Part shown: piece after piece, positions 9,783 through 40,751 of the stretch
Layout: every line of letters begins with the position of its first letter
How positions within the stretch are numbered: position 1 is the stretch's first letter
NCBI GenBank assembly: GCA_963971425.1
Contig: OZ020518.1
Span: forward strand, 6,241,989-6,305,988
Direction of reading: 5' to 3'
DNA: 64,000 nucleotides
From: Bryoerythrophyllum caledonicum
Lineage: Eukaryota > Streptophyta > Bryopsida > Pottiales > Pottiaceae
Translations under genes and position numbers: made by a program
The notes under the pieces: model-generated
The model's database searches: none
Seen by the model: only the letters and a program-made list of their open reading frames with translations
Told to the model about the DNA's origin: nothing

Positions 9783-10753
9783 GTGAGTTCAGTTTGTGCT
9801 ATTTATGTGCCTAGTCGATAGCTGTGCCTCTTATGTCTGGTTTTTCTAATGTGCTGGTGTAATGTGAACTTGGATATGTTCTCCCTGTAACGTCGCTGAA
9901 TTTTTGTTTTGTAGCCTGGATGGTATCCATGCTTTCCGTAACAAGGGCTGTTCTGAAGCTGTAGTTTCTCTATATAGTAATCGTCGATAAGGCTTAACAA
10001 CATACAAGCTTTGTTATGTAGAAGTGACCTGTCTAGCACATGGCTGGACGAGGTTGTTTTTGATAGCAAGGCTGTGCTTCCACGTTTCAGTCTAGTGCAC
10101 CCGGTGCTTTGCACAGGAGTAGACATGATCTGGGCCCGTAGAATGGGCTCTGCACGAGCTGGGCTTTTTAAGCCACAGATTTGGTTACGAACTCTACTTT
10201 TATATGCTAGAAACTGAGGTAGTGTTTTATTGCACTTCTGGGCAGAACTTAGTGACTTGTTTTGCTAGGTGCCATGATAGTGGACTGACTCTGTTTCATA
10301 TGAGAATATTGCAGACTCTGGGAGGTGATCAAGTTATACGTATATTCATTATCCACTTCCATCATGTGAACTATTTCAAGAGCTGACAGAAATTCGCATT
10401 TTACGTTTGGTCAAGGGAGGTCGAAATTTTGCTCGTCGTTTGTATACATCGGCGTCGTCCTCGTCTGATTGCCATTTAATTGGTAAGTAATGAAGCCTTC
10501 TTTGTTTAGAGAAGAAAATAGTCTGATGCAACTCTTGTGGTTGGTGTTTTAGAGTTCATGAACCGTCAATAAGCGGGTACACCTCATTTGATTTCAGCTG
10601 ATGTTTGAAAATAGTTTATGATGTACCATGTTTTCTGTCTCTTCAGGTGGTGAAGTTGTCTAAAGAAGGATCTGACTTGCAGTTTATTGTCAAACGTGAC
10701 AGCGGGGTTGGTTTGATAAGAACAGGATATTTTTGTTCTGACTACTTGTGAAG

Positions 10754-16707: not shown

Positions 16708-18404
16708 CAATCCCCTCCACATAATATGGTAACCCCCCATGGACCAGCTCACATGTGTTACACAATTGATTTGATTGAACATCCCAATTAGGAAGCTGAT
16801 TCAACCAAGATAAATTGCAATTACATAATTGTAGTATCTGAGAATGCATTTATGAGCCGTCAGTGGCTTCTAGACTAGCAATTCCGTGTGTTACATCAAA
16901 TTGAGTACCATGTGGTATGTGAAGCTTTTTGAAGCAATGCAAATATTTTTGAGAATAGGGAGCTCTGTGAGTACCTAAAGTGCTCAATTTTCCTTGCAAT
17001 GTCATAAAATTGAGTAGTTGTGATGATGTGTGAGTTGAGAAGGTCACTCATACCTAGAAGGTTTTGCTACAAAATTTGATTTCTTGTGATGCCGTAGTTG
17101 TTGGTTTAGTAGCTCATAGAATTGTTGTGTTTGTCATTTAACAAGTTCATTTTCATTCTCCCTCACTAGTACCATGAGAAGTTACTTCTTATCAGCAGAA
17201 GAGTACAATTTTATTGTAGGAATTAACACAGTTGGAGCATCTTTGAGTGAAATTGCAAACGTAGTTGGAAAATTAAAAAAGAACATTTCATTAGTCTTCA
17301 AGAGATATGGAGAGCGAGGTTCAATACAAATAGCAAAAAGATCTGAACGTCCAAAAAAACTGCAAGAGATTGATCGACGAGTTCTCAAATATGAGATTGT
17401 CAAGAATTGTAGAATACCTCTTGCTAAACTTGCTAGTAGCTTGCCCATTTCTGTTTGTATGAATACCATACAAAAAGATGTGCATGACCTTGGATTTGGC
17501 ATTGATTTGCCAAGAAGAAACCTTTCTTGAATGAGAGACACAAGAAATTGAGGTTAACCTGTGCGAAAGAGCATAAACATTGGACGGTGGAACAATGGAA
17601 GTTGGTTATTTGGAGTGATGAGTTGTCATTTGAAATTGGTGCTTATTCATGTCAAACTCGAGTATGGCGGACTACTTCAAAAAAATTTCATTCACAATGT
17701 TTAGCACCAACATTCAAGTCTGGAAGGATGTCAATCATGATTTGGGGTGCTTTTACTACAACTAGTAAGTGTTTTTTTATTTTAATTCCTTTTAGACAAC
17801 GCACTGCTATGGACTTAGTAGAGATTGTATGTGAGCAAGGATTATTGCCCTACTTCTACCACCATGCTAACCATGAAGAATTAGTATTTATGTTGGATAG
17901 TGCACCAACACATACAGCCAGAGTGACAAAAAATTGCATCAAAGATATTGGTTTAAAAATGCTCAATTGGCCTCCAAATTCTCTTGACTTAAACCCTCTA
18001 GAAAACATGTGGATGATTTGTAAAGATAGGGTCCAAAAGATGAAAAGACCCAAAAAAAATAAAAAATGTGGAATGCAGTGCAAGTAGCTTGGGAGAGCAT
18101 ACCAATGGAGATGTTAGACAAGTTAGTTGCAAGCATGCCAAAACGGATACAAGCTGTTATTGATGCCAGAGGAGGTAGCATATAGTGGTAGTAGTAGTTG
18201 TTGATCAATCCAATTTTCAGGTTAGAAACGATTACAAAAGATTTGTATTTTTTTTAGCAAGAAGCTTCTACATGTATAAATCTAACTATTTACAGAAAAA
18301 AATTCTATATTTGATGTGTACATGAGGTAGCATTAGTTTTCTTGTTGGTCTCTTCCTGTGTGTGAGAAACAACAAGCGGTTACCTTACTTTGTGGAGGGG
18401 ACTG
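16708..18404 (+). mobile_element. Tc1-like (DD34E) DNA transposon, 1.7 kb
   Basis: It is flanked by TA at 16706-16707 and 18405-18406. The left end is CAATCCCCTCCACATAATAT. The complement of the right end starts CAGTCCCCTCCACAAAGTAA, giving an inverted repeat of about 27 bp with mismatches. The length and the single transposase fit Tc1. The related MITE at 58831 provides an empty-site comparison that supports the TA boundaries. Confidence 0.85.
17174..18185 (+). pseudogene. Tc1-type transposase, two frameshifts
   Basis: This is a cut-and-paste transposase. The N-terminal frame (17174-17525) carries paired helix-turn-helix motifs (SLSEIANVVGKLKKNISLV). The catalytic part (17527-18055) shows WSDE, LDSAPTHTA and WPPNSLDLNPLENMW. 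The second Asp and the Glu are separated by 34 residues, the DD34E spacing of Tc1. Reading shifts once near 17525 and again near 18060. The true C-terminus (ESIPMEMLDKLVASMPKRI..) ends at the stop at 18183-18185. All catalytic residues are present, so the decay looks recent. DD34E elements are common in animals and fungi and less usual in plants. Confidence 0.85.
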
Positions 18405-21469: not shown

Positions 21470-22320
21470 ATGGCTATTTCAGATGAAACTCGTGCTCGCA
21501 TAGTAGGTTTGAGTGAGGCATGGAAGACATGAGTTGATATTGCAGATATTGTTAGAGTCCATGTTAGAACAGTTCAGAGGGTAGTGAAGAAATTTCGAGA
21601 AGATGGAACCTATAAGTACAAACCTTGTGGTGGAAGTCATGCTAAAAAGCTTAGTGATAGAGATGTCCGTGCTAATATACGTGTCTCAAAAACTCATCGT
21701 CGCTCGACACTCTCTGAGATCACTAATATATGTTCCACTCAAGTGTCTAGATCGACTATTCGAAGGGCCTTACATGAGAGTGGCATTTTCAGTCGAATTG
21801 CTGTTAAAAAACCTTTTGAGTTTTCTGACACATCGTCACATGTCTAAACGATTGGCATTTGCTCAAAAGTATTGTGGGTGGACTATAAAAGAATGGGAGA
21901 GAGTTGTTTGGACAGATGAGTCTACCTTTGAAGTTAGAAATAATTCTAAACAAGTTCATGTTTGGAAAAATGCATATGAGCGCTATTCATCAAGCTGTAT
22001 AGTTCCAAATTTTAAGAGTGGGAGAACTTCTTTGATGATTTGGGATGCATTTGCTGGAGGGAAAAAGTCACAACTTGTTTTTATGCCCAAAGATAGACGT
22101 TCTGCTAAGATCGGGAGAATTTGCAGGCCAATATGTCCAAAAATTGAAAGATGTTGTGCAACATGGCCCAATATGTCCAAAAAATTTAGATGACTTGAAG
22201 GTAGTTATTGAAAGAGAGTGGAGGTTGATCAATGGTACAAAGCTCCTTCAACTATGTCATTCTATGTCCTTTAGGTTACAAGCAGTGATTGAGGCAAATG
22301 GAGGACATACACATTGGTAG
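21470..22320 (+). pseudogene. Tc1-type transposase lacking its catalytic end
   Basis: The start MAISDETRARIVGLSEAWKT is typical of Tc1 transposases. After an in-frame TGA the helix-turn-helix continues (DIADIVRVHVRTVQRVVKK). The frame shifts near 21830 to RLAFAQKYCGWTIKEWERVV and WTDESTFE, the first catalytic Asp. Beyond FMPKDRRSA, about 80 codons with the second Asp and the Glu are missing. The C-terminal part (DDLKVVIEREW) resumes in another frame and ends at 22320. It cannot encode an active enzyme. Confidence 0.8.
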
Positions 22321-23661: not shown

Positions 23662-23710
23662 TCCAGATTCCAACGACACTATCTTGTGAGCGGTGAGCGG
23701 TGAGCAGTGA
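23662..23710 (+). repeat. Left target duplication and terminal inverted repeat of the giant MULE
   Basis: TCCAGATTCCA (23662-23672) is repeated exactly at 40741-40751. Next comes ACGACACTATCTTGTGAGCG..., with repeated GGTGAGC words. The complement of the right end shares TATCTTGTGAGCGG, then (C/T)GAGCGG(C/T)GAGCA.TGA. The arm is about 36 bp. Confidence 0.85.
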
Positions 23711-24088
23711 GCAGAAAATAGTTTCAGAACACCAAAAATCGCTGTTTTTTAGGCAAAAAAGCAGTTTTTTGAGAAATTAGTGGTACAATAGTGAAGTTTG
23801 GCCTTGAATGTTGCAAAATTTCCTAAAATAAGAAAATACCCTATAGCCGTGGATACATTGACAATTGAATGTTTTTTCCATGTCTTACGCACGTCATGGA
23901 ATTTTAATCATGGATTTTTTTTTTCCCCGAGGATTACATTTGTGGTTTTATTTAGGATGGCAACTTATAAAACAGAAGCTTCTGATGAAATGCTAGAGTA
24001 TTTGATGTGGAGTAAGATATTTTATTTCTTGAAGCAATAACATATCAGGTTTCTATAGATATACCAACGGTTTAGGGAAAACATTAAA

Positions 24089-24165
24089 CTACCAGGTGAT
24101 GGTGAGAGATATCTAACTTCTCCAGCTGGAAAGGGATTAGGGTTCAAATCCCCGTCGTGGACTGC
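24089..24165 (+). repeat. tRNA-like sequence, possible SINE head
   Basis: A-box-like GATGGTGAGAGAT (24098) and B-box-like GGGTTCAAATCCCC (24140-24153) are spaced as in tRNAs. It lies inside the left arm region of the giant MULE. No tail or target duplication was traced. Confidence 0.4.
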
Positions 24166-24339
24166 TCGCTTTATCTAAGAGAACTACCGGAAGTTGCTAA
24201 TAGAACACTTCCAGTGTAAGGAAGGGAAAAAGACAAAAATAATTATCTAATACCTATAGTCACATAGTTGGAATATGGACACCGCATCAACTATCTAGAC
24301 CTCGTCTGAGTATTATAAGTTCAGCCGTGACACACATCA

Positions 24340-27300
24340 TCATGCGACTTCTGCAATATTAGCAAGCTCTAGTATGCGTATAACTTCATTGAAGCTGTAG
24401 CTTGGAGCATGCATGAACAAGTCCTTTTTGTAGTCCAATTTACACAAGTAACGTAAGATGTAGTACACATGCTTACAATATTTCCATTGCCCCTTCTTTC
24501 CCAATGCCTCTGTTGACATCTTCAAGAAATCAGGGCACGTACATGCGGGGTAGTCCGTGATGGTCACGCAATACGACTTCTTCTTCTCCGTTTCCAAAGT
24601 GATAACACATCCAAATCCTGGATAAGGTATGGCAGTGACATTTGAAACGTAGCACTGATTCATGAGAGCAGTGCTTGACCACTTGTTTCTATGCTGAACA
24701 AAAGGCTCGTCATTGGTCCTCCGAATCTTTAAGCCGTTTCGGAAGGTATGATATGAATCAGGATTCTCTAAAATCGGGAAGTCGGAACGCGGACGAGGCA
24801 TGTTCAAAGAAACCTGAAATTGTCTTCGAGGCGATAGTGATCCACGTTGCTCCAACTAAAAACCTGCTTCCTCCAGCAATAAAACCTCTTGCATTGTCAA
24901 ATTAGTGCCCAGCTTAACCCCTAAAGATCCTTGAAAGCCGAAATGGCTTTTCGCTATTTCGGGCAGCCTAGTTCAAGGGGTTAAATTTAATATTTTTGCA
25001 AAAGATTTTTACGGGGTGTTCCCTATACTACAAGGTGTATGTGCAACAATTTGCAAAGTCGAATTCCAATTTTTGAGCTTATTTACTCAAATTTTAGTTT
25101 TCAACCTCTGGGCAGGTAGAAAAAAACTTTTTATTTTCAACATTTTTTTGAAATTTTTTTTGCTAATATGTTCATAACTAAGTTTCTATTCAAATTTCCA
25201 AGTGACCCATGTTGAACCTTTTACCAATTCTGCAAGGGCAGCCTTTAAAAATTACAACAATAAGTTTCAAAGTTTTTCACAATATTACATTTTTTTCTTT
25301 CAAAATTCGTCAAAATTTGAGATTTAATAATTTTTCAAAAATAATTTTTCCCAAAATTCACAAACTTAAAGAGGTACCTACTCACCGTTCATTTTCTTCC
25401 TAAATTAAATACAATAAACGTGATGCATGTTTTTCAAAATCACCATTTTTATACCTTTTGTTGGAAAATAATTTGCATGAAGGTCCAAAAAGCCAAATGA
25501 GTCTCTAAAATTTTGCATAGGAATTCAGAACATGATTCTCCACATGGAAAAAAATATGAGCAAAATGATTGGTGTAGCAATCATCAAGTTTTCCTTTGCA
25601 CAAAGTAGACTGTCTTTTAAACAATGCCCAAAAAAAGTTTTGCATCAACTTTGAACATTATAATCTCACAAATGGTGCACATCCAACGGCTCAAATTTGA
25701 CGTAGGATATTCCATAGTAGCTAGGTTCAAGATCCTACGGTTGAAAGTACTAAAAAACAGTAAATACATTGACCATACCTCAATTCCAACAAGGTGGTAG
25801 AAATTCGCAGTTTTTGGTTTTCGAGCTCCCAAGAACACAAGGATTTTTAGGGGTTAACCGGCCACGTCATTGGAATCATTGGCCAATCAACCACATTGTA
25901 TTTCTTTGATCCCTTCACACACCGACCAAGATCATCAGCGCAGAACCAAAATTCAACGGTGATACTATGTGGTGATCTGAATTCCTTTCTCCTACCGACA
26001 TACGTTGGAGCGGGAGTTCCGTGGATCCCACGGCCTACTTTAGCGCCACACTTCTCAGCAGTTCCGGCCTGTAATGCCTAACATTGTCTTTTAGAGTTCT
26101 TCGGAAGATGGGCAATGTGCCACTTTGACGGATCACACTGATTCTAACACTGATGTTGTGTGTCGAACTCCGGAATCTTGTCCACTTAACGCCTCCTTGA
26201 TCCATGTACGAGTCACCCTTGTGCCATCCCGTGGAATAGAGTAGTTTACTATATCGGACCGGTGAGAGTCGTTATTGGATCCAGGTGGCATGTCAAGCTT
26301 ACGCTTAGTTGATCTGAAGATCTCAGCTCCTTAAAGACCGCCGGTTCCTGTCAATAAGTCTTCCGCCCCCAGAAAACTCTTGACAACTTCTGCTATGAGT
26401 CTAGGATCACCAGAACGTTGAGCAGTTCGCAATCGAAGCGTACCTTTGTCTGGTCCTTTACCTGATGTGCCTCCCTTTAACCATGCTCGATAAGTTGTGA
26501 TTTGCATAAAAGCGCGGATGAGGTCATCCACTGTAGCCGCGTATAAACACGTCATCGTGTTCCCGGATTGTTGAAGCCAACGATTGTGGACAGTCTCTGC
26601 AAGGTTGCACGATGGCATGTCAGCTCTCTCGTCAAGCGTGAGGTCCTAACAAGGCAAACAGAGGGGGAGTTTAGGAGATTAATCGAGAATATGCTAATTA
26701 ATAAGATAATCCAAATGGTGAAGGAAAGAAAACTTACAAGCTGCATAGCGCCACCCTATTGTCTATAACGAAAGTGCCAGAATGCCATCCAGTCTTCAAG
26801 GGCACGACGCCCGCTGTCAGTAGTGGCGCCAGGTGAAATCCACCACCCTCGAATCACGTTGTATTGAGCTTCAGCCTCTTCCTGTGATTTGGCATTCTTC
26901 CATATCTTGCACAGTGCAATGTATTGATCTTGAAAGGCAGGGAGAATATTCTTGGTTGTGGCTCGGTGAAGGCACTTTGTCCAATGAAATAAACACGCCC
27001 GCTCTCTATTTTCCATCCTTACGTCTTTATCGCCAGAGCCATACACCCTCCATACATCATGCCAATTTGCGCCTGCACTATCAGCCATGAACCCTTTGAA
27101 GTTCGTGTCTTCTACTCCGTGCTTCTTCATTGTATCGTTCAGGTTCTCCCAGAAAAGTTGTTGTGCTTTGGCATCCTCCGATTGCATAACATACATGGCT
27201 ATTGTCATGACTCGACAGTATTTGCTGTCGTACACATGGCATGCCATTGTTGTCCAGTCTTTGACCCGCTTGACATGATCAAACATCAACCAACAATCTT

Positions 27301-28842
27301 GAAGGTCTCCACCAGGTTGCATCCGTCTTACAAGGTCAACACCACTACTAGGCCGATCAACAGACATTTTAAAAACAAATACCTTACCTTTAGATTGGCC
27401 AGGGAACTTGTTTTTGTGGATGAAGACAAACTTTGACGACTCTTTCAAATCCATGATGTTGTCCATAACTCCCTTCCCTCCACTATAGAAGCGTTTGCAC
27501 GATGATACTAGATTCCGGATGTTTGGAGATGATAGTGTCTCGAATCGGTCAAGGACAACATCCATAGATGCTCTTCAAGGTTTGAAGATCCGGATGCAAG
27601 ACGGATCAAGTAATCGGAAAGATAAGTCTTACTCGCAGCCATGATGATTGCAGAATTAGTAGCCTTCGGTGTGCGCTATACCTCCTTCACGACACACTCA
27701 TGCATCAAGTCCATCGCAGTTTGGTCAACACCATTTGAGATCGGATGATGATGATGTCCAAGATGAATGGCGAGTCGGGTGCGCTCCGAGTCGGGTGAGG
27801 TCACATAATATATACGTGCATCACAAAGCGCTAAACAAATAGGAGGGGTTTGGCACACTTTACAAGTTAAAGTTGATTTCCTCGATGGTGCGCCATTTAT
27901 TGGGAACGGCGAGATCGCAAGTCCGGCCCACTCAGTTTGATTTGTGCAACCCTCGTTTGTGCATCTATAGTCGCAATTGACGTTGGGGCATTGAAGATGT
28001 CCAGTACATGTTGATTTTCGGTAAGTAAGACCGAAGTCGTTCATGATGTTGGTCGTCGTTGTCCTGCACCACATATGACCATCGTACTATTTGCTCATTC
28101 CGTCGAGGCCCCCCCCGAATTGAGTTGGCATACCTTCTGGAAGAGAAGGTAGTTCAAAAATCATGTCTCCATTGTACTGCGGAGGTAGATACTTAACACG
28201 AGATACCTCAAAATTATCAAAATCAGTGCGTGACAACTCAGAACGAGACCCCTTTCTAGAACAAGTCTGGCGGACGTAAGGAATGATACTTCTGATGCCC
28301 TTGGACAAAGGATGAATAGGAGGCTTCCTAGACAAAATAGAGGGAGACATCATGGATCTACTTGCAATTGGATTTGATACAGGCTGATGGTCCGTGTCTT
28401 GTGACTTGGAGGGAAACGATGACTCTCCCAAGTTTTCATTAGAGTCATCGTCATCGTCAGTGTCACTAAGAAATTGTATGCTTGGGTTACACTGTCTGCT
28501 TAAACCGGACAAGAGTACTGTATCACCTGATTGAGATGGAGGAGTCGTGACACCACAAGAGGCATGTGTAGACATTTGAGCATTTGACACACCATATACC
28601 TTGAATGAACCACGTCCTAGATTCCACGCAAATCCATTATCATTGCAAAATTTCACATGGTATACAGAATGCTGCAATGTACCCGAACTATCAAAAATCT
28701 CTTGTTCGACATGAACTAACCCCATCCTAAGACCAAATCGAATACAAAGCACTGCCTCAGGGACATTAACAGTTCCATCATCACCAAGGGACATGACAAG
28801 CGGAACACCGCCGTAGTGAGAAGTGAAGGACGCCATTAGCAC
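24340..28842 (-). pseudogene. SWIM-type MULE transposase of the giant element
   Basis: The pieces read right to left. 28842-28087 is an N-terminal part starting MLMASFTSHYGGVPLVMSLG. 28074-27676 carries a Cys/His cluster (CPNVNCDYRCTNEGC). 27565-26756 is the transposase core, with CWLMFDHVKR, GFMADSAGANW and ACLFHWTKCLHRAT. 26618-25860 is the region after it. 24855-24340 carries the SWIM zinc finger CTCPDF...YCKH. Between 25860 and 24900 a TTAA element is inserted. The enzyme would bind the element ends and move them. A few frame changes and stops between pieces indicate decay, although some may be introns, such as one near 26640-26740. The core is well preserved. Confidence 0.8.
24918..25853 (+). 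mobile_element. TTAA-flanked element inside the MULE transposase
   Basis: It is flanked by TTAA at 24914-24917 and 25854-25857. The ends are CCCCTAAAGATCCTTG and, on the complement of the right end, CCCCTAAAAATCCTTG, a 16-bp inverted repeat with one mismatch. The first 64 bases form a near-palindrome that itself ends GGGG-TTAA at 24978-24985. The interior has no transposase. Confidence 0.8.
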
Positions 28843-29440
28843 ACAGTCTCAACAACAACAAAGTTAGAACGACTCTAAAAGATGAGAGGTGCTAAATTGA
28901 AAGAAAGTTATATATCATGCGTACTTGAAATGCTGAATTATGCATTCGTAGTCTGCCAGAACGGAATAATACATTCCTAGTCTGCCAGTACGACTAGCAC
29001 ACAATCTGACACATCTTTCTCGAACACGACAAAGTAGAGACCAATCTAGAGGTCATAATATGAGTCAGCAATGAACAAATAGGTTAGTACTAGTTGTATC
29101 ATTTTAGCCACCATGGTGGCTTATAGTTATTTTTCCCCGGTGTTGTCGTGATTCAGTAAATACAATAGATAAATCCAGATAAGTGCAATGCTTGTGACTG
29201 CATTAGCAAATAATAGAGATTTGGAAGACTCCATTAGCTTCCATTTTGAAATTCAAATTAAGGCTGACAACATATGCAAAAATAGATAGAGATCTTGAGA
29301 CATCCTGTAGGCAACAACTTGGAATAGTAAAATTGCTTCAAGTAGGCGTAGATGTGGTGCAACCACTTCTTACCATATTATAGGAGCCAAACTCGTCTGA
29401 AAATGTTCAATGTGACCCAACCAGGTCGTCTTGCAGAGGA
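28843..29440. promoter_or_regulatory. Divergent spacer between transposase and accessory gene
   Basis: The region lies between the transposase start on the minus strand and the first exon-like sequence of the plus-strand gene, so both promoters must be here if the two-gene reading is right. 'ATTC(G/C)TAGTCTGCCAG' recurs twice near 28945 and 28975. No TATA box was fixed with confidence. Confidence 0.35.
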
Positions 29441-30960
29441 TGACAAGCAGGGGTGGTCGGAAAAGAAGAACAACTCACTATTCAAATGCTAAGCACAAGA
29501 GGTCACGGACGCAGCGACAATAGCTCAACGCCTTGATTTCTGAGGAGAGTCGTGACGAACTATCATCTGATGGGCCCGTGCGATTGAGGAAATTGTCAAG
29601 TATACTGCAAGCGGAGGAGGCGAAGCACTATCCTGACGAAGTAAGTATTTCAAGTTTATAAGTCTATTTATTGTCAATATTGCAATATTGTGTAGGTCAT
29701 ACTTACACTCGTAATGTGAAGTCGAACAACTACATTATGCAACTGCGCAGAGAAAGGGGGAAGAAGAGTCTATACAAGTTATAAGGACAAGTGATTTCAC
29801 GGGACCTAATGCGTCAGGTAGCTCGATGCATGGGGGTAAGGGTGCCAATGTTGTTGTTGACGACAATGAGTGTCAAAGCATGGACTCAAGTATGGATCCA
29901 AAGAGCCGAGCAATTTCATCTCGATCCACAAGGAATAGGAATAGGTCCTCGTCGAGGCAACCAATAATCGATCAAGGCCTGATCGAGTAAGCGCGGGGGA
30001 TAGTGGGCCGATTCTATTGGGTGCGGAACGAGCCCAACCGACACAAGTACGATATCTTCTAAATATTAAATAGTTTATAGCGTAACCATGGTTCAATATA
30101 GATCATTCTTTAACTAAAACAATATATGTTTAAGTTTTTTTGTAATTGGTATTCAAAAGCAAGAATTGTTTCTAACTGGAGAATTACCGATTCTCTATGC
30201 GCTTGGTTAAGGGCATAAAGGATCATCTTCATAATTTTCCAAAGCTCAACTTCCGAGGCGGGGTTAGAAGATCTTCCTTTTACCTACTAGTGTTTGAGCC
30301 TTTCCGTCCTTCAAGGGTCACTATACGCACTTGCTTGTCATGTAACTCGGCGTTTTCCAGTTTTGTGACCATTCTAGTCGCTGCCGATGTTCAGTTCTAG
30401 TAAGGATAAAACTTAAGCTTCTAATTCTTCTATATCATTTGAGTAACGAGTTGTCCTCCGTTATTCGGTTGCCTTTATGAGTTTCTTCTTTCAACTTCAA
30501 GGAGCAGGTGGTGTGAGCGGAGAAGGCAGTGGACAGAGTAACGACGCCGAGGTGTTGCAGACGCGAGTAAGACTGGTGAGTACACGAAAAAATCAACTCA
30601 GTCGTGTTTTTTCATTTCCGCGTTTGATAAACCCTAGTCTACGTTCTAATTGAGTGAACCCATAATTGTTGAAAACCAAGAAGGAAACCGGAAATCCTTG
30701 TGCACTTGAATAGCTCTAAAATTTATAGCAATCGTGTAAACCCTGATATTCGAGCGCCTCAAAACCCTAACTCTTTGAAAATTGTAAACTCTGAAATGTT
30801 CGGTGCTCACATTATCGTAGAGTAATCCCTGATTCTAAGTTGCACCTGCGACAGGTTGGCGGCGCAAAGGGGCTTAACGAAGTCGGGTTCACGAGCATTT
30901 TATCAGGCGGAATGGAGGAGGACCAAAACCGACCAACACATTTGGTTAGTTTCTGTTTAT
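29440..30960 (+). pseudogene. Upstream exons of the accessory gene (unrecognised)
   Basis: Three coding-like blocks are bounded by splice-like sites. 29465-29640 is basic at first (KRSRTQRQ) and then ESRDELSSDGPVRLRKLSSI, ending GAA|GTAAGT. 29727-29990 reads VEQLHYATAQRKGEEES and ends (ATCGA|GTAAGC) or at a stop. 30490-30575 plus 30855-30944 join in phase as ...EVLQTRVRL|VGGAKGLNEVGF. Serine/arginine-rich stretches suggest a disordered, perhaps nuclear region. Phases of the first junctions do not all agree, so the model is incomplete. Whether these exons join the ParB-like exon or form a separate gene is unknown. Confidence 0.35.
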
Positions 30961-31194
30961 CTTGAACATGAAACTTCACGAACAATATGCCAGTATTGTT
31001 GCGATCGCGTTCGATTAAGATTGAATCTACAATATCAAGATCACGTTTTGATCTTGTTTTTTATTGTTCAGTCTCTGTGCCTACTACTTGAACGTTTGCT
31101 GTGTCGGCACTTTAGTTAAGCTTTCTAGTTTTCTGAGCACTATCGTTACCTGAACATGCATGTTTATTGAGTCTGTGGCACATCATGACGTGTT

Positions 31195-31800
31195 GATCCT
31201 GAAATGAGCTAGGATCCCTCGGATCCGAGGCCCAGCTTGAGCCTTCCATTTTTGTTTTGTTTTGCTGAATTTTGGTTATAGTTCATGTTCATTTATTCTC
31301 ATGATTAGTGTGTGTGCATGTTAGGTGATTGCTTTCTTTATGCTAGGTGTGTGCTTGTGAAGTATATTAGTTACTAATCATGAGATCAGCTAGAGTCCCT
31401 CGGATCCGAGGCCCGGCTTGAGCCTTCCATTTCTGTTTTGTATTTTTGAATTTTGGTTATAGTTCATGTTCATTTATTCTCATAATTAATGTGTGTGCAT
31501 GTTAGGTGATTGCTTTCTTTATGCTAGGTGTCTGCTTGTGAAGCTTATGAGTTTCTGATCATGAGATCAGCTAGGATCCCTCGGATCCGAGGCTCGGCTT
31601 GAGCCTTCCATTTCTGTTTTGTTTTTTTGAATTTTGGTTATAGTTCATGTTCGTTTATTCTCATGATTAATGTGTGTGCATGTTAGGTGATTGCTTTCTT
31701 TATACTAGGTGTGTGCTTGTGAAGCTTATTAGTTTTTGATCATGAGATCAGCTAGGGTCCCTCGGATCCAAGGCCCGGCTTCAGCCTGTACTTCGTGTTC
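31195..31800 (+). repeat. Four tandem ~180-bp repeats, each with a 14-bp palindrome
   Basis: Each unit has 'CAGCTAG', then CCTCGGATCCGAGG (31217-31230, 31397-31410, 31579-31592; one mismatch at 31760-31773), then 'CTTGAGCCTTCCATTT', 'TTTGAATTTTGGTTATAGTTC' split over the unit, and 'GTTAGGTGATTGCTTTC'. Spacing is 180-182 bp. The array lies about 260 bp before the ATG of the ParB-like exon. It may be a bank of binding sites or an intronic satellite. Confidence 0.85.
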
Positions 31801-32057
31801 TTTGTTTTTGTGTATGCTTTATTCCATTTTCGTGTTACCTCATCAACAGTCATCATTCAAGTTTGTTGATATCTTGTATCATGCTAGTCGACAGCTCCGT
31901 GAATTGCTCGATTTTGTTTATATCCATTTCAGCTTGATCCCCATGCCGGCTAGAGCGCTTACCTTCGTGATATATTTTTCAATTTCAATTACTTTCATTG
32001 TTTTATAATTGTTATGAGTTCTAGTCATTTATTATTTTTTTTTGTGGATGTTCATAG

Positions 32058-34360
32058 ATGGCGTCACTGCAAGGAGAAGAGGTAACTCGAAGTTTGGACT
32101 TGGCGGATCCGAATGTGGAGGCGGAGACAGTCTCTGAAGCTCTGGGCTCCCCAAATGAGGCTACAAATTTAATTCTCCAAGTGGTGCATCAAGTGGTACC
32201 GGCGATTGGAGTTGATCTAGGTTTGGACACTACAGAGCTTTCTTTGAGGAAGTCTATTCGTGGTACTTCTTATGATGTACTGCAGAAGTCACATTTTCCA
32301 TCTATTGGGGAGTTACACATCCCACTCTGCCGAATGTTGCCAATGATGGAGGTACATATTCCAGTCAAGCCGGACATAGAGAAGCTCATGAGCGAGTTTG
32401 TCAAAGGATACCGCCCAGGATCTGCATGTTTTTATGTTGCATTGAAGAACTTTTCGATGGGAGAACGGGAAGTTCTGCCTTAGGAACGTGCGGGGTGGTC
32501 AGACCTTTGGAGGGAGAGGACCAAAAATTCGAAGCTATGATTGCGAGTAGGCCAGAGTTACAGAGCCTTTCTGATCGCTATTTCTTTGTGTGGGATGGCA
32601 ACCACCACCACCTTGCATGGATGGATGTTATATGCACAATGCATCGAAACGATTGTGCTTTTCATACTCCAATTTGGGCAGTTTTATTGGAGCCCACTTT
32701 GGTGAACCGCCATATACTACTAAATGCCATGACAGACTGGAACAAGTGAGTTCACCATTATGATTTCTCTTGTTTGTTTGTTTTTATTCCATTTGTTTTA
32801 ATTTTCATGCTTTATTCCTATTTTTTATTATGTTCATGTATATTGTGGCTCACGCAAAAAGACTCGGACCATGTGACACAGCAACTGTCACATGATGTGA
32901 AGAGAGTTCAGCATTTTGGTTTGCTAGACTTCGATCAGCTCAAGGGTCTGATTAGTGAGGAGGATCACGAGGCTAGTGTGGTGGAGTGGGCTAGGAAAGG
33001 GACCAAAAAGTGGTACCATATGACCTTCGATTCATTCTTGAAGTTATTCTATGAGGTATGTCAGGATTCATTTCGGGCTAAGTTTGTTTTCTATGCATTT
33101 ATGTTAGTCCCAGAGTATGGTTTGGATTTGATATTGTATGTTTCATGGCAATTTTACTAAATTATATTCTTTTCACTGATTTCTTTGTGTAGCGGGAGCT
33201 CATTGCTGCTCAAGAAGACTGTATTTGAACTTACCGTGACAGAGTTGTGACCGGTGTTGGGGCTGATCGTATTGGGAGCTCGGCAGAGTTGGTCACTCTT
33301 TGCTCGGAAGCGGTTCAGAAGAAGAAGACTCAATGTGGCACCTTACTCACCCAACTCCTTGCCATTGCTGACCCGCGTAATGGTGAAGAGTTTTTCAAAG
33401 AGGTATTCGAATGAGCATTTCATTGAATTTGTTCATTCATCATCTTTGAATTGTTTGAAAAAATTTCATTGACCCTATACTTGTTATCCTCTGATTTAGG
33501 TTCTACATCATTACGATGTATACCAAAACAAGCCCGAGATTACCACAGAGAAGTTGCAGCTGCTTTGCACGTCGAAGGTTTCAACAAGGTTCAAAGGCAG
33601 ATGGATGCGTTGGTGGAATTTGTCGAAAGAGGGTAGGGATGAATACAATTTCCCAAAAGCACCATGTTCGGAGATCAATCTTAAACCCTAGCTCGACGTT
33701 GCTTCATTTTGGGCCGGGGTAAGTTCAATGTTCTTAAACTATTTAATATATTGTTTTCTACTATATTTTTAGTGATGTTTTGTAAGAATCTAATCTTGAA
33801 TGTGCAGCTTGAGGAGGAGGTAGAGAAATTATTTTCCAAGGTCGTGAAGGAAGACAATATCACCATTCGGAAGGAGGGCCTCCCGAAACTGGCACTGGAC
33901 ATTGGCTCGTGGATTGAGGCCAACTCTCTCACGTTCTGGAAGAAGGCGTTCAAGAATCATTTCAGTGCGACGAAGCCGTTTGTGAAGTCTAATGAGTTTC
34001 TCAAGCAGCCAGAGACACCTCAAACTATCAAGAGAGTGGTGCTTTGATACTTCTGGCGAGAGCTCGTTGCCAACGGAGCGTTGCAGCCTCGGGAGTTGCC
34101 AATCCGGCTGAGGAAGTGGTGTGATACCACTGTCAAGGCTGAGTGCATTTTCATAGTCTCAGTTGCGCCGTTTCACTCGTCACCACTTGGCTCAGTGTCC
34201 TTGGTACTTAGAGCTCCGTGGATCAGTTCCAACTCTAGGTGACGAGGTGGAGCTCCGGGAGTCGTGTGATGCCTTGGCAACACATTCTAGAGCGGGTTCA
34301 GCTTTGCAAGCTTCAGCTCCATTCCTGGTTGAGCCTGACCTTGAACTAGGTGGTGTGGTT
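32058..34360 (+). pseudogene. ParB/sulfiredoxin-like N-terminal part of the accessory gene
   Basis: It starts MASLQGEEVTRSLDLADP in frame from 32058. MEVHIPVKPDIEKLMSEFV resembles the first strand and helix of ParB-like domains. After a frameshift near 32460-32490, SDRYFFVWDGNHHHLAWMDV resembles the 'DGxHRxxA' signature of the ParB/Srx fold, with His where Arg is usual. Later exons (about 32862-33055, 33192-33400, 33500-33690, 33805-34150) are helical and charged (LEEEVEKLFSKVVKED, RELIAAQEDCI, NEFLKQPETPQTIK), with several GT-AG boundaries. In bacteria and phages such domains are often fused to DNA methylases, and a methylase-like part follows at 38207. The gene is broken by stops, at least one frameshift and a 3.8-kb insertion. 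The family call is from motif reading only. Confidence 0.5.
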
Positions 34361-35015
34361 TTTCACCACTCTAGGAAAACACCCAAGTGTACCCACACCT
34401 CATAGGATTCGTTATGGGGATGATCATACGCCTAGTTTTAAGTAATTGAAGATTAATTGTGTCGTTAAAGCTATCTTTTTGGTTAATTCTTAAGGTTATC
34501 TATCTATTTTAAGGAAATTAGGGCTTTAGCATCACTCTTAAGGGATCCACAAACAAATTCTAAACCCTAAGGATCTCTCCTGCCTTAAGGAGGTACATTA
34601 AACATGCAATTAAGCAATTATGCACTTAGCCAAGTGCATTGATTGGTGGTCGAAAATAGCAAGTTTATGCTCAATTTTTTTAAAAAATTAAAAATTAGCA
34701 AGATTATAGTATCTTTTTTGTAGTGAATTTACATGTCTCTTGCATTCAACATTGGCCTCTTCAAGTGCACGTAATTGACATATTTTCTCGATTTTAGTAT
34801 GAAAAAGACACTTTGAATGTCGTCATACATGATTGTGCAAGTGAGTTTGTTATACATAACTTGCTCAGTTTTATTTGAGATGAATGTTAAGGCCATATGT
34901 ACAGTTGACAATGTCCTTTCTTGTTTAACGAGTCAATTATGGATTTGTCCATTGCAATTTGAACCATATAATTGGAAGGATTTTAAAAAGTTCTTTACCG
35001 TTCGCCGAGTATAGC

Positions 35016-36605
35016 GTGGACTAGAGTAGTTTGAGCTTCTACACTAATTGTAAATTTTACATGCAATCATCACTTGCTTGAAGACAAATATGCAATCAGA
35101 ATTTGACATGCATGTGCTTGATGTAAATTAGGTTAGGTGATCTGCATCAATAATGAACCCACACTATACACACAATCTCGAATGTACAGTATGTTTGAAT
35201 GATGGATGACTTTCATCGACTCTGGGATTTGGGAGGTATGCGCCCGCACACCCCTGGAGCAAGCTGACTGCCATGAAATGGCGAGCTGGAAATCTGCCAT
35301 GGGGTCAAACCACAGGTATGTGCGTTGCTCCCAATTGTCTTGCCCATTGTTTATTAACCATTCCTCTCCCTACCTGAGCACGAGCCCACAAACCTCCATG
35401 CTGAAATTTCCTGTGACTAGGTTTCTCTATATAAAAAAAACCTGCTCTCTTAACCAAATGCAACTCGACATGAGCTTTTGTACTGGTATTGAAAACGAGA
35501 GCACGAGGTTTTGAAAACAAGAGTGCAAGGTTGGACTTTGCTATCACAGTGAACACTCGGCGAAGCCTAGGAAGAGAGCGAGTGCTGCGCATGAGAGCAA
35601 GGGCAACGAAAATGATGAAGATGGCGAGCAGGCTCGTGCAAAGAGGGGCAACTGTTGCGGCAAATCAGAAGTGAATCGAATCATTTTATTAGCGACGCTC
35701 CCGGATATTCGCTAGACATTGGCCACGTATTGGCCAGGCATCCGCCCATCCAATCGCCCACATGCTGCAAATCCAATCGCAATCATCCAATTTTGTCGCC
35801 CCTCGTCTCCCTACCATCACCTAAATTCCAATGTTGTTGTAACCGGAGATGTCAGCAATAGATACAAGTGATGGCGACACCGAGAGAGCGCGAGAAGCAC
35901 GATGACGATGATGATTTTGCACCTTGAACACCTGAACGAGGAAGAAGAAGAGTTTGAATGATGGTGCAGAGGCGGCGCGTGTTGCGCCAGGCAAGGTTGC
36001 TGCGCGAAGAGGGTTGCTACGCTACGGCCGTGGCTGCGAGAGGAGGGCAAAGAGGTCCCGCGTGTTGCGCGAGGAGGGTTGCTACGCTACGGACGTGGCT
36101 ACGAGAGGAGGGCAAAGAGGCGGCGCGTGTTGCGCGAGGAGGGTTGCTGTGCTACGGCGCTGGGTGCAAGAAGACGGCGGAGAGGGTTTCTGCTGCGGCG
36201 TGGCTGCGTGACGAGGGTCGGCGAGGAGGGCGGAGACGAGGATGACAACGACGTTTAGGGTTTCGCGGGTACGGAAGGGAGGGTATCAATGGCGGGTATC
36301 GCCCATGGGCAATCCTTCAAAAAGCAGCTGCCCAAAATATTGTGCTTCCAAACAGCTCGCTCTAGGGGTGTGCGGGCCCCCCCCCCCCAAATCCCAGAGT
36401 CGATGAAAGTCATCCATCATTCAAACATATTGTACATCCGAGGTAGTGTGTATAGTGTGGATTCATTATTGATGCGGATCACTTGCACTAATTTACTTCA
36501 AACACATGCATGTCAAATTCTGATTGCATATTTGTCTTCACACAAGTGACGGTTGCATGTAAAATTTACAATTATTGTAGAAGCTCAAACTACTGTGGTC
36601 CACAC
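35016..36605. mobile_element. Long-TIR (Mutator-like) element nested in the CACTA-like element, with GC-rich cargo
   Basis: About 243 bp at 35016-35258 is inverted at 36362-36605. Shared words are AGTAGTTTGAGCTTCTAC, TTGTAAATTTTACATGCAA, GATGACTTTCATCGACTCT and GCCCGCACACCCCT. Long arms and a GC-rich non-transposase interior recall Pack-MULEs that carry gene pieces. The cargo (35262-36360) has open but unrecognised frames and a tandem repeat. No target duplication was confirmed. Confidence 0.65.
35975..36200 (+). repeat. GC-rich tandem repeat, ~65-bp unit, about three copies
   Basis: Units share GCGTGTTGCGC, GAGGGTTGCTACGCTACGG and GAGAGGAGGGCAAAGAG, the last at 36038 and again 65 bp on. Reading frames through it are Arg/Gly/Cys-rich and unlikely to be real protein. 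Confidence 0.75.
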
Positions 36606-36959
36606 CACAACAAATGGTAAAGCAATCTTTGTCTCTTCCAAACAATGAATTTTCAATCATTAAGTTAGTTGAGATTTATGATATCAAAGTAGACAAAGGA
36701 GACTATATTGATTACTTGCCCAAAAAAAATGAAAGTACAAATAAATGGCCAAATGTGTCAAATGTTTCTTTAAAATTAGAAGAAAATAAATTCAACAATC
36801 TCTAGTATTTAATGGCAAATCAAATGTATTCTAGCATTTGCAAGGTGCAAAGCTCCAAATCTTCATATTATTATTTTTTGAAAACGAACTTTTGAAAAAT
36901 GTGTAGATTTGGCAGTTTTGTGTGTAATCGCGGCCACCAAAGACAAGTGCACTTTTTGA

Positions 36960-37960
36960 ACTACAAGGGCAAAATTGCTTAATTGCATGTTATTAGTCCT
37001 TTTAAGATTGTGCTTATGCCACTAATTCTTAAGTACTTGCCACACTGGGCTAATGGAAGTTTCCATTAAGTCTCATTGCATTGGTTCTATAATTACACTC
37101 TTTAAGAATTCAAATTCTTACCTCATGCAAAATTGCTCCACTTTTCACGTCCGTTCACTAAATCCACGTAATCACGTTCTTAAGACAAGGGTTAGTCAAA
37201 AATCACATACACAAGTTAACTTAAGTCTTAGGGAGTTTCAGCTCTTAAGTCTCCAGTTAAGTTCACTTATCCACACTTAATTCTTAAAGACTACGGTGTT
37301 CTACACTTACTTCTACCATTTAGTCTTTAAGATCTCTGACTGGTTCTTAAGACTTCATTCTCGGTCGTCTCCATATTCTTAAGAACACAGTCTCTACCCT
37401 TTAGTTCTTAAGCACTCGTTTGCTCACTCAGGCCTGATTCTTAAGAACATGCACTGTCTAGACCAATTCAACCCTACAGTGTTCTTAAGTTTTTGTCTTT
37501 AAGACTTCCAGAACCCGGAGTGCATCTCACTGAATGCAAATATTGTCTCGTATTCTCACTTATACAAACCTTTAAGTCCAAGCCCTTAAACTTAAGGATC
37601 TCTTGGTACTTAAGGTCTCAACCTTCATAAGATTATATATCCAAACTTGGACTTAAGATTCTTAAGTTTCTATGTTTTCTTCTTAAACCTTTCATTGGGA
37701 TTTGTTCTTTATTTTCTCTCTTATGATAGTTTCTTAAATACTCACAACTTAGCCTACCTTAGAGAATCCCTTCTATTAAGGTTAGACTTAATGCTAATTT
37801 TTTGTATGCATAATATGACACTCTTGCCATGCATCAAGGTATGCCACTCTTGATGTTTATTGCATAAATTGCAATAACACGAATAAGATTTCCACTCTTA
37901 TTCTTATGATACTCAAGTTATGCTCACTCACACTTGAGATCTTCTTAAGTACTTATGCAC
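36960..37960. repeat. TTAAG-rich right subterminal region
   Basis: TTAAG or CTTAA occurs dozens of times in about 1 kb, in both orientations (for example 37030, 37180, 37225, 37345, 37405, 37475, 37590). Dense short motifs next to element ends are typical transposase-binding arrays of CACTA elements. Not coding. Confidence 0.6.
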
Positions 37961-38206
37961 CACACACCTCATGCACTAAGTCACTTAATTTCACATTATC
38001 TCCATTAATCTTCACACTCATGATTAATGCTCCAACACACATACACATGGTCGGGACCCGAGAAACTGCTGTCAGCCCTGGGTCTTGGATCGTTCTCACA
38101 GCCGGCTCCAGTATTGACAACATTAGGCGCTTCTCCATCCGCCAACAGCCAATCAGGAGCTTTCGTTGCTAAACCAGCGTAGACCATCTATTCAATTCTT
38201 GTAGTG

Positions 38207-39684
38207 GAGCAGCCAGAGTCCACTGTAGTTGTTGAGGTAATGAATACTAGTGTCTACTCTATCTTTACTGATTATGATTCAGTTACAACTGAGGATGACG
38301 TTCCGCCAGTCTCGAGGGATATAACTCAATGGTTGATGGCCAATGGCGGATCCAGGGCGTGGTACATGAAGGGGGAGTTGACTGAGGATGGTTTAGCGGA
38401 TATGTTTATATTTGATGTCCCGGAGGACTTACCAGTTCCAGGCATTCAGGGTGGTACTGTGATTCCACCTTGGAATACACTACCTACAGTGCCGACACCC
38501 AAGGGTTGGAAAGAATCATTGTCGATTCGATTTAACTTCGAGTTGGCAGAATCGTTTCTTCGTGATGGAGGAGCTATCATCGTGTTCTATCCAGATTCCA
38601 GCTTCATTTCAAATGAACTGGTTTCCTGGGCTCAGTGGTCGGGATTTGACAAAAAGGCAAAGTGGTTCGCAATCAATGGACTTCCCCTCTTCTCTGATGG
38701 TCGCCCTTGCCGCGTACACAAGACTTTCATGGTCGAGTGCTTCGTTTGGAAGAGGGATCCTCCAATTCCATTCGTCTTCAATGACAGAGTCGAGCTTTTG
38801 GCGGATGGGATTGAGATTTCCTCAGACGGTCATCTGACCAATTTCATTACCTAGGAGTCACTGATGGTGAGGGCCTCCACCGGGATGCCATAGCGAGGAG
38901 CGAGAGAGAAGTCGCAGAATCTATTGGAGGCTCTCATTGATCTGTGCACCGAGGAGGATGAGATCGTCATGGACCTCACCGCTTCTACAAGTATATTCAT
39001 TTCACTCTTCCGAAATGCATGTTTTATTATTCAACCATCATTTGAATTTCTTACTATCTATATTCCTCCTTTTTTGCAGGTGCATCTATCAAGCCTTGCA
39101 AAGTCCTCAAGCGTCATATTCTTGCCTTGGAGGCAGACAAGGACTTGGTAGAAGAGGTGCTTCGATCCATGATTCCACAGACGGTAGACATTAATTCTGC
39201 GATTGCTGAACCCATGGAGCAGACTTCTCTCAAGCGCCCTTTGGAGCTTGGTGATGATGAACCAGAGATTAAGACTGCGCCTAAGAGAACTTGTAAGTAA
39301 GTTCTCTTCTTTTATTTGTTTTTTTTGTTATCTTTTTCAATCATTGGTATTTTACTAATGAAAATTTGTTGCAGATGGTTCTCGACGTCGTTGATAGCTT
39401 CTCTGTCAACACCTCCCGCTGGAGTGCTGGCTCGCTTGGCAGGGAAGGTTGTGAGTCTGGAGCAGCAGCATATTTTGTCTGAATATGCTGAAGCTGCTGC
39501 CATTGCATCCGTAGCGCAGCCGTCGCCTCCACAACGTCCACCGACTGCTCGATCCGGCTCTGGAGCGAAGGATTTTGTGGATGACGAGGCTGAGGAGGCT
39601 AGTACTGATTCCGATAGTGGTTCTGATAGCAGTATGCCGTTTATCCATGAGGGCAGTGACGATGAGTGCTATAGTGAAGAGTAG
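38207..39684 (+). pseudogene. Degenerate beta-class amino-DNA-methyltransferase-like part of the accessory gene
   Basis: 38207-38854 gives 215 codons, with DMFIFDVPEDLPVP where motif IV (DPPY/W) is expected, then GGAIIVFYPDSSFIS and VHKTFMVECFVWKRDPP. After a broken stretch, LLEALIDLCTEEDEIVMDLT continues over an intron (38988-39079) into GASIKPCKVLKRHILALEAD, matching motif I (DxFxGSGTT...R..I.IE). Motif IV before motif I is the beta-class order of N4/N6 enzymes. The last exon (about 39375-39684) ends in an acidic tail rich in Asp/Ser/Glu. Both catalytic motifs are altered (DVPE; LTASTGAS), so activity is doubtful even in the ancestor. Similarity is by eye; a non-enzymatic Rossmann protein is the alternative. 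Confidence 0.5.
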
Positions 39685-39689
39685 TGATT

Positions 39690-40700
39690 CTTCTATTTTG
39701 TATGCCGTATTGACATGATATGAGGCTTTGGATCTATGGATATATATATGTCTTATTTGATTATTCGTTTCAATCACATAAATGTTTGTACTCTAGTTAG
39801 ATAATCTAATAGATAAAAAATGATACTTCACTGATGGATTTTAATCAATTGTTATAATGTATTTTTGAAATTAGAACTATATCTTTATCACACCATGAAT
39901 AGTTTACGAAGTTTCGAATATATTTAGATGGTCCATCACTATCATTATCTCCATTCGGCATCTCAAGTCGCAATGATACTGCCGTGGCAGCCTTTGGGTG
40001 CTAGTGCTGGGTATACAAGGACCTTGAAAGACCAGCCCCATTCCGCTTGATGTAGGGTAGACACAGGGTAGATGAGGTTGTAGCACAACAAGTTTTTAGT
40101 TTTTGTTTTGTTGTTTTTCTTTATTTGTCTTTTATATCCATATAACATATTCACTTCATACATTTCGCTTCATGCACCTTGATATTTATTAGAATAGTAC
40201 TACATATTTGACTCAATTAGAATAGTAATACACATCCGAGAGAATTCTTCTATTGCAATTCGCAGAGTTATTCAAGCGATGTTTATCCATGGACTTATGA
40301 TATTTGTAGTAAAACAATATAGATAGTTGAATAGATGTACTTCATCTCCATAGTTTTAATTCTATTGTATAAGAAAATAAGGGGATTATAGATGTACTTC
40401 TCCCCCATTAATGAAATATAAAATCGTTATTATTTGGAATACAAGTTTGCATTGTAATATATGTTACATTATCTCTTATTGAATTACTTTTAGTTGTAAT
40501 TTTCTGCCAAAATTCTAATAATAGTGCCATGGCTATAGGTGCCTCTATTCAATAAACTATAAATTAAACCGATTGTAGGTCAATAATTTCTCTGACGTTT
40601 TTTGTTTTTGTTTTTTTTTAAGCACAATCCACCTACACTCACGGCAATAGGTGTTCTTTTTAATTTCACAACAAAAACAATGGTAAAAATTGTCATGAAT
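39690..40700. other. AT-rich right arm of the giant MULE
   Basis: This is the 3' flank of the accessory gene. No gene was seen. The short frames on the minus strand have no motif. Confidence 0.4.
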
Positions 40701-40702
40701 TC

Positions 40703-40751
40703 AGTGCTCGCCGCTCGCCGCTCACAAGATAACATTCCTGTCCAGATTCCA
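40703..40751 (-). repeat. Right terminal inverted repeat and target duplication of the giant MULE
   Basis: The complement reads CAGGAATGTTATCTTGTGAG then CGGCGAGCGGCGAGCACTGA. The duplication TCCAGATTCCA lies at 40741-40751. A lone GTGCTCGCCGCTCGG at 57488-57502 looks like a fragment of the same terminus. Confidence 0.85.

Follow-up and report, generated by a model that had tools for sequence, protein, structure and literature searches.

A probably Mutator-like moss transposon family with a divergent ParB/methyltransferase-like gene and candidate target palindromes

Why should a plant transposon carry, divergent from its transposase, a second gene built from parts best known in bacteria? This question is raised by an element of about 17 kb within a stretch of 64,000 nucleotides (hereafter the window) from the moss Bryoerythrophyllum caledonicum (assembly GCA_963971425.1, contig OZ020518.1, positions 6,241,989 to 6,305,988; G000:C6:6241989-6305988 in our notation). 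An initial annotation had read it as a Mutator-like element (MULE) with inverted ends, a transposase gene and a ParB/methyltransferase-like gene, here called gene 2. Comparison with other copies agrees that this is one transposon with both genes between its ends, since the ends lie outside both genes and the genes co-occur, and places it in a cut-and-paste DNA transposon family with two co-mobile, divergently transcribed genes. Upstream of gene 2, usually in tandem arrays, are palindromes with TCGGATCCGA at their centre. From their position and their co-occurrence with gene 2 we consider it somewhat probable that these sites, which resemble parS, are bound by the gene 2 protein and that the element is thereby marked or derepressed.

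The limits of the element were set from the other copies. The end word TATCTTGTGAGCGG, a 14-mer, was counted in the window's own 437-Mb assembly, where it occurs 864 times compared to none for its reversed control, and 13 copies were fetched first, ten of them large (E1-E10) and three short (M1-M3). In the window the arms of the terminal inverted repeats (TIRs) are 31 bp long (23680-23710 and 40701-40731) and 90% complementary. In other copies the conserved sequence reaches 9 bp beyond the TATCTTG motif to termini of the form CAG...CTG, the outer terminus being CAGCGACGC on the transposase side and CAGGATTGC or CAGGAATGC on the gene 2 side, and the true window element is therefore 23671-40740. 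Its left TIR (23671..23710, plus strand) comprises the outer 9 bp CAACGACAC, in the place of CAGCGACGC, followed by TATCTTGTGAGCGG and TGAGCRG repeats, and its right TIR (40701..40740, minus strand) has the outer 9 bp CAGGAATGT read inward. The inverted ends of about 36 bp that had been annotated are thus present, with the correction that they consist of 31-bp arms plus 9 outer bases and that the true termini lie farther out. Similarly, the annotated 11-bp direct repeat TCCAGATTCCA is exact at 23662 and 40741, but it is not flush with TATCTTG, has a third copy at 38590, and was rejected as the exact target-site duplication (TSD). The latter is the 9-bp TCCAGATTC (23662..23670 and 40741..40749), and the further CA is element sequence plus chance.

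Duplications of 9–11 bp, which the initial annotation had suggested checking for, recur across the family. We inspected the ends of 20 further two-gene copies. They come from the first 27 transposase copies in scan order, minus four fetched earlier, one that lacked a scored gene 2 partner and two others. In 18 of the 20, a 10-bp direct repeat directly adjoins CAG...CTG (17 exact, one with one mismatch), and no direct repeat is found in the remaining two. Among the 13 copies first fetched, a 10-bp repeat flanks E2, E3, E5, E7, E8, E9 and E10; by eye, E1 has one with a single mismatch; M3 has an 11-bp match that overlaps the end by one base; and no direct repeat was found for E4, E6, M1 and M2. 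As minor observations, two loci (L026 and L028) are copies of about 200 bp with the same ends on both sides, and runs of TTTAGGG, which we take to be the plant telomere-type repeat, adjoin one end in two of the three short copies.

An empty site at the joined flanks, which the initial annotation had suggested seeking, was found twice. The window's joined flanks are 91% alike to G000:C6:6324740-6325032, a paralogous sequence without the element on the same contig, about 42 kb past the element's right end, and 77% alike to a second empty paralogue at C4:14369634-14369910. Together with the many other copies, these empty sites make an assembly join inside the interval very unlikely, and it was rejected. 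We looked both for such a join and for ends lying near the transposase without the second gene, and found neither. Seven base pairs at the window insertion site (23662-23668 and 40741-40747) are missing from both empty paralogues and are possibly the footprint of an earlier excision.

Linkage of the two genes was scored on best-scoring copies only, namely 63 of the 3232 candidates from a genome scan with the 713-amino-acid transposase exon (64 rows, of which the second row of a split copy was dropped) and 77 of the 3755 candidates from a scan with the 564-amino-acid gene 2 exon. In 46 of the 63 transposase copies a scored gene 2 lies divergent on the opposite strand within 40 kb, at a median of 7.2 kb, and among these 63 and 77 copies no pair in any other geometry was found. 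The best 30 transposase copies have a gene 2 partner in 29 cases, while 31 of the 77 gene 2 copies are without a scored transposase partner. Of the 17 transposase copies left unpaired, at least C2:10378776 has an adjoining gene 2, 56-69% identical by exon, that falls outside the 77. The database homologues listed for gene 2 and for the transposase both include contigs of 104370 and 312168 bp, a hint that the two genes are linked elsewhere as well.

The family has been active recently: E2 and E3, at different genomic sites, are 99.6% identical across 14.97 kb, and stop-free exons are found in 21 of the 30 best transposase copies and in 25 of the 30 best gene 2 copies. Both genes are also maintained by purifying selection. 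The ratio of nonsynonymous to synonymous divergence (dN/dS) of E3 against E1 and E5 is 0.17-0.18 for the ParB-like exon, 0.13-0.14 for the methyltransferase exon and 0.20-0.26 for the transposase exons; E2 and E3 differ too little for such an estimate, and synonymous divergence is saturated in most distant pairs. These values bear on the idea that gene 2 is a passenger, captured but of no use to the transposon. Capturing fragments of host genes is a tendency of Mutator-like elements, according to excerpts of a published account (PMC6446971), but gene 2 is found in lineages whose methyltransferase exons differ from one another by 40-46%, always in the same divergent orientation, and when E3 is compared with E1 and E5 its dN/dS does not exceed the transposase value. 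We rejected a passenger on selection and linkage and give it almost no chance.

The transposase itself is divergent. It has 139 database homologues, and neither the query nor 56 of these homologues gave a Pfam match above the cut-off or a match to PF10551 (MULE). Transposase_mut matches 2 of the 56 homologues weakly (best E 0.034; P0009, E 0.18 over residues 552-694, the catalytic core), and hhalign of the transposase to the few MULE frames from its own genome is likewise weak (E 0.054, probability 1), with D...D...CxxH aligned. By eye, a SWIM-like CxC...CxH lies near the C terminus (CTCPDFL...KYCKH in the window copy), and the Pfam SWIM model found no match in the transposase. Profile searches of the Protein Data Bank with the transposase, ParB-like and methyltransferase alignments returned unrelated weak matches only. 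The excerpts of the account cited above give MULEs TSDs of 8-11 bp and, in many groups, TIRs, and list a 10-bp TSD, a 40-bp TIR and SWIM together for MULE-Mucorales (PMC6446971), which the family resembles in its 10-bp TSD and ends of about 40 bp (31-bp arms plus 9 outer bases). TSD and TIRs fit the annotated reading as a MULE, for which the transposase gave no MULE or SWIM match in Pfam. Given the weak profile matches, the landmarks, the 10-bp TSD and the 40-bp ends, Mutator-like is the best name, and the transposon is most likely, although not proven to be, a divergent Mutator-like lineage.

Gene 2 was reconstructed from the intact copy E3, where it has seven exons with AG/GT borders and encodes about 1124 amino acids (the start codon is uncertain and the last exon was read to the stop). 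Database homologues number 7 for its methyltransferase exon and 15 for its ParB-like exon. With the intron inside motif I removed, the C-terminal part scores 30.7 bits against PF01555 in E3 (cut-off 26.7) and 26.1 bits, just under the cut-off, in the further gene 2 locus L089; the match covers the cofactor-binding half only. The same part matches a phage (PHROG) DNA-methyltransferase family at E 2.4e-6 and the NCBI CcrM model at E 8.8e-5, far under that model's own cut-off, and a single hhalign comparison with five beta-class enzymes aligns 197 columns (E 4.1e-6, probability 87), placing the DVPE of gene 2 on the catalytic DPPY and its DLTASTG on the DPFAGSF of YhdJ. Like YhdJ, CcrM and RsrI, gene 2 has motif IV followed by motif I, with similar spacing and cofactor motif, and motif I is retained together with the acidic residue that follows. 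Unlike them, it has DxPE in place of DPPY: D372, P374 and E375 are invariant in all nine aligned gene 2 sequences, and the canonical catalytic (D/N/S)PP(Y/F/W) is absent from all nine. Judged by its sequence, the C-terminal domain is of the beta-class DNA amino-methyltransferase type with a non-canonical catalytic motif.

Such a domain could still methylate DNA, acting as an N6-adenine or N4-cytosine enzyme on the element that encodes it, for instance at a GATC or GGATCC in the palindrome centre. Both words are typical targets of beta-class amino-methyltransferases, which counts for activity, as do the matches to PF01555 and to PHROG DNA methyltransferases, the 197 columns shared with YhdJ, CcrM, RsrI and MboIIA, and the conservation of motif I and its acidic neighbour. 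However, all nine aligned sequences have glutamate instead of the aromatic residue of the catalytic DPPY/F/W, which makes methylation of a GATC/GGATCC core doubtful, and the Pfam match is limited to the cofactor-binding half. Modification of the element has been suggested in print, in the excerpted source, for an algal transposon protein of such architecture (PMC12477816). For gene 2 we think an active enzyme unlikely, and a catalytically dead methyltransferase that would only bind DNA is the simpler reading.

The N-terminal exon carries, by eye, the motif WDGNHRHMAW, with DGNHR in both E3 and L089, a box that we take to resemble those of ParB and Srx proteins. A ParB-like partition family among 38,880 phage (PHROG) families was hit by L089 over residues 130-164 at a non-significant E of 0.43; tblastn of the exon against phages gave no match, and a search of viral contigs with the ParB alignment gave 201 pattern matches of which none was confirmed. 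The annotated ParB/methyltransferase-like gene is thus substantiated in its methyltransferase domain, and the ParB identity of the N-terminal part is suggestive only.

If gene 2 encodes a DNA-binding protein, where might its sites lie? A tandem array is present between both genes in every two-gene copy that was run through a repeat finder (window, E1, E3, E4, E5 and E7), with units of 181 bp in the window, 274 bp in E7, 234 and 273 bp in E4 and about 520 bp in E1, E3 and E5. The arrays hold perfect palindromes with TCGGATCCGA at their centre. In the window the array occupies 31185..31810, upstream of gene 2, and the palindrome CCTCGGATCCGAGG occurs in it at 31217..31230, 31398..31411 and 31579..31592 and, with one mismatch, at 31760..31773, so that three cores are exact. 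E7 has 20 sites within two mismatches of CCTCGGATCCGAGG, 14 of them with an exact core. Exact cores number 3 in E4, 7 in each of E1, E2 and E3, 6 in E5, 2 in each of E8 and E9, and 7 in E6, which holds a gene 2 fragment. Six further gene 2 loci (L085-L087 and L089-L091) were fetched after the palindrome lead had been noted, and five of these have exact cores: four in L085, one in L087, nine in L089 (with yet other arms), one in L090 and one in L091, which also has two one-mismatch sites. At least one exact core is thereby present in 14 of the 15 gene 2-bearing loci examined (the window, E1-E5, E7-E9, L085, L087, L089, L090 and L091, with L086 as the exception); in L085 and L087 gene 2 lies just past the fetched stretch and was placed by the gene 2 exon scan. 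No exact core was found in E10, which has no gene 2 match, or in the three short copies.

Palindromes of at least 14 bp with any centre are far more numerous than in shuffled sequence in seven intergenic stretches (observed/expected 5/0.18, 13/0.52, 5/0.27, 7/0.32, 4/0.18, 9/0.30 and 7/0.40), and two of the five in the window have a centre other than TCGGATCCGA. Genome-wide, the TCGGATCCGA core occurs 2527 times compared to 179 for the reversed word, and the two arm types CCTCGGATCCGAGG and TTTCGGATCCGAAA occur 1068 and 476 times, their reversed words not at all. The locations of these sites were sampled on contig C1 (the first 50 of the 1068 and 47 of the 476; three listed C2 sites were dropped). 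Among the C1 sites listed, 86 of 97 (22 of 29 clusters) have an exact end word no more than 20 kb away, where about 3% would be expected, and in all eight gene 2 copies listed on C1 a TTTCGGATCCGAAA site precedes the methyltransferase exon by 2.0-2.8 kb. We also compared the array units with their central 40 bp masked, using one unit per locus and 30 shuffles per pair, for loci other than L089-L091. Between the groups {window, E7}, {E4}, {E6}, {E1, E3, E8}, {E9} and {L085, L087}, units align no better or slightly better than shuffles. Since the units are mostly unalignable between lineages, the palindrome is the clearest persisting feature. The anti-silencing, targeting or partition-like role annotated for gene 2 stays hypothetical, but these sites make sequence-specific self-targeting considerably more likely.

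The array of E3 (L013/L014) holds seven perfect palindromes with half-lengths of 17-71 bp, thus up to 142 bp long. Such long perfect palindromes are usually unstable, and their persistence in this array is odd. The TGAGCRG repeats of the ends were also considered as a gene 2 target and set aside, as they lie mostly at the ends and are present in E10, which is without gene 2.

Could the palindromes instead serve a host transcription factor, as operators or as parts of a bidirectional promoter, with gene 2 acting elsewhere? Their position would suit a promoter element, as in L089, L090, L091, E7 and E4 the nearest exact site precedes the matched part of the ParB-like exon by about 150-480 bp, and in the window it precedes the candidate start at 32058 by 466 bp. 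If a host factor used them, however, many sites should also lie outside the family, and 1544 of the 2527 cores belong to the two tested arm types (the remaining 983 are unplaced), of which the sites listed on C1 lie near element ends in the proportion given above. On this ground a host factor is disfavoured, and we hold it to be improbable. Sites of strand transfer or assembly for the transposase are very improbable. The palindromes do lie inside the element in 14 of the 15 gene 2 loci, but they are internal rather than at the ends, and neither E10, with its transposase, intact ends and exact 10-bp TSD, nor the three short copies has a core. E10 moved with a clean TSD and without gene 2 or palindromes, which suggests that transposition does not require the sites in cis.

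Binding by gene 2 itself is the reading that we favour, and it could work as follows. The protein would have a ParB-like head, a charged middle and a methyltransferase-like tail; it would bind the palindromes, putatively CCTCGGATCCGAGG, GCTTTCGGATCCGAAAGC and CCTTCGGATCCGAAGG, as a dimer and cluster there, and binding at many sites would single out the DNA of its own family. The likeliest effect would be that the two divergent promoters are kept open against host silencing, together with autoregulation, as for VANC at its motif arrays; alternatively, binding may balance the output of the two promoters. A bolder and more tentative version, to which we give somewhat less than an even chance, is a transposon-encoded system like parS-ParB, in which a ParB-headed, catalytically retired methyltransferase would spread or cluster on the promoter-side TCGGATCCGA palindromes and mark family copies for de-silencing or choose those that move. 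Protein and site would then stay locked to each other while the DNA between the sites turns over.

Several results weigh against binding by gene 2. The ParB-like exon has no Pfam match, PF02195 included, for E3 and L089 up to E 10 and for the 15 homologues up to E 1; two of the three sequences scanned (the E3 exon and P0141) gave no ParB-like PHROG match; and AlphaFold2 models were unusable, with a mean confidence score (pLDDT) of 41 for the ParB-like exon and 43 for the methyltransferase part. L086 has no exact core and four one-mismatch sites, and in L087 and L090 a single exact site stands in place of an array. The unit flanks of the window and E6 align with a score of 19 against a shuffle maximum of 18, and those of E1/E3/E8 and L085/L087 with 14-18 against maxima of 13-16, so the array units may not be wholly independent. 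In the young array of E7 the palindrome columns are no more conserved (0.977) than the rest of the unit (0.976). Finally, because transposase and gene 2 lineages track each other, the user of the sites might be the transposase, or else a host factor.

How does this compare with known systems? ParB proteins of bacterial plasmids and chromosomes act at clustered palindromic parS sites near their own gene. Gene 2 is similar in its DGNHR-type box and in the clustered palindromes near its own gene, a likeness without profile-supported homology, and differs in that it resides on a nuclear transposon and not on a replicon. The VANC protein is of the DUF1985 type, and DUF1985 was not among the Pfam matches of gene 2 up to E 10. 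In function, the closest analogue is VANDAL/VANC of Arabidopsis, which, as described in the excerpted source, combines an accessory anti-silencing gene with tandem motif arrays (PMC5735166). Here too motif arrays lie in the non-coding parts of the protein's own family, with single sites in L087 and L090 and none exact in L086. The VANC21 motif YAGTATTAY is given there as non-palindromic and in one orientation (PMC5735166), whereas the core found here is palindromic and kept across lineages.

In architecture the closest case is the accessory gene of the Ectocarpus element Sola1-1_Ec32, whose product is described as ParB-like with an amino-methyltransferase, with green and red algal cases also cited, and which the authors suggest may bind and modify the transposon's own sequence (PMC12477816). 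By that description, its orientation opposite the transposase, its size and its methyltransferase part agree with gene 2, and the ParB part is a suggestive likeness only. The carrier there has a Sola-1 transposase, whereas here it is Mutator-like with a 10-bp TSD, and the excerpts of that paper mention no palindrome array, whereas arrays are present here. Viral mariner elements also carry a methyltransferase gene besides the transposase (PMC3627910), of the Methyltransf_26 or C5-cytosine type and with an endonuclease, and with no ParB-like part mentioned in the excerpted text. ParB-methyltransferase accessory genes on transposons are thus known from algae (PMC12477816), where the available text does not name the target of the proteins. 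What is added here is a carrier that is probably Mutator-like, an apparently retired catalytic motif, and candidate target palindromes; such palindrome arrays were not found described in the titles and abstract beginnings of the open-licence papers listed in our searches. If the palindromes are the target, recognition of the self element by such proteins becomes directly testable, and, if true, this would be a second case beside VANC of transposon-encoded, sequence-specific self-recognition, with parts best known in bacteria.

In the window, the element is a disrupted copy, with frameshifts as well as nested insertions. Remnants of the two large exons of the transposase gene, recognised through homologues, lie at 24340..28848 on the minus strand with a broken frame that is open in other copies. 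This gene is interrupted by a nested insertion of about 0.94 kb (24914..25857) at a TTAA site, bounded by TTAACCCC...GGGGTTAA and with 20-bp inverted ends (TTAACCCCTAAAGATCC...), which is absent at the matching place in E3 and E7. Gene 2 follows on the plus strand. Its N-terminal ParB-like exon (32058..32748), with the box DGNHH, shifts frame near 32480, and its middle exons and the first part of the methyltransferase exon span 32858..34346 (approximate limits, from comparison with E3). An interrupting sequence of about 3.7 kb (34347..38053, approximate limits; ~34.35-38.05 kb) is missing from E7 and falls inside what is a single methyltransferase exon in intact copies. The multi-exon appearance that had been annotated for this gene is thus in part due to a nested insertion, although introns do exist. 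Within the interrupting sequence, inverted repeats of 251 bp at 35016-35266 and 36353-36603, 90% complementary and 1086 nt apart, make 35016-36603 look like another nested transposon. The second part of the methyltransferase exon (38054..38990) has an open frame at 38183-38854 and is broken by stops; it encodes DVPE at 38414-38425 and the motif I DLTAST near 38972-38989. The last exons (39080..39684) continue motif I with ASIK...EADKDLVEEV and end in an acidic tail.

Elsewhere in the window, inspection by eye found remnants of Tc1/mariner-like transposases near the element (17506-18087 and 21588-22193) and, on the minus strand at 50940-51614, an open frame with a SWIM-like CxC...CxxV that is perhaps another Mutator-like transposase. 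In addition, 9803-13310 and 60267-62968 are duplicated parts about 50 kb apart with similar open frames that are ankyrin-like by eye.

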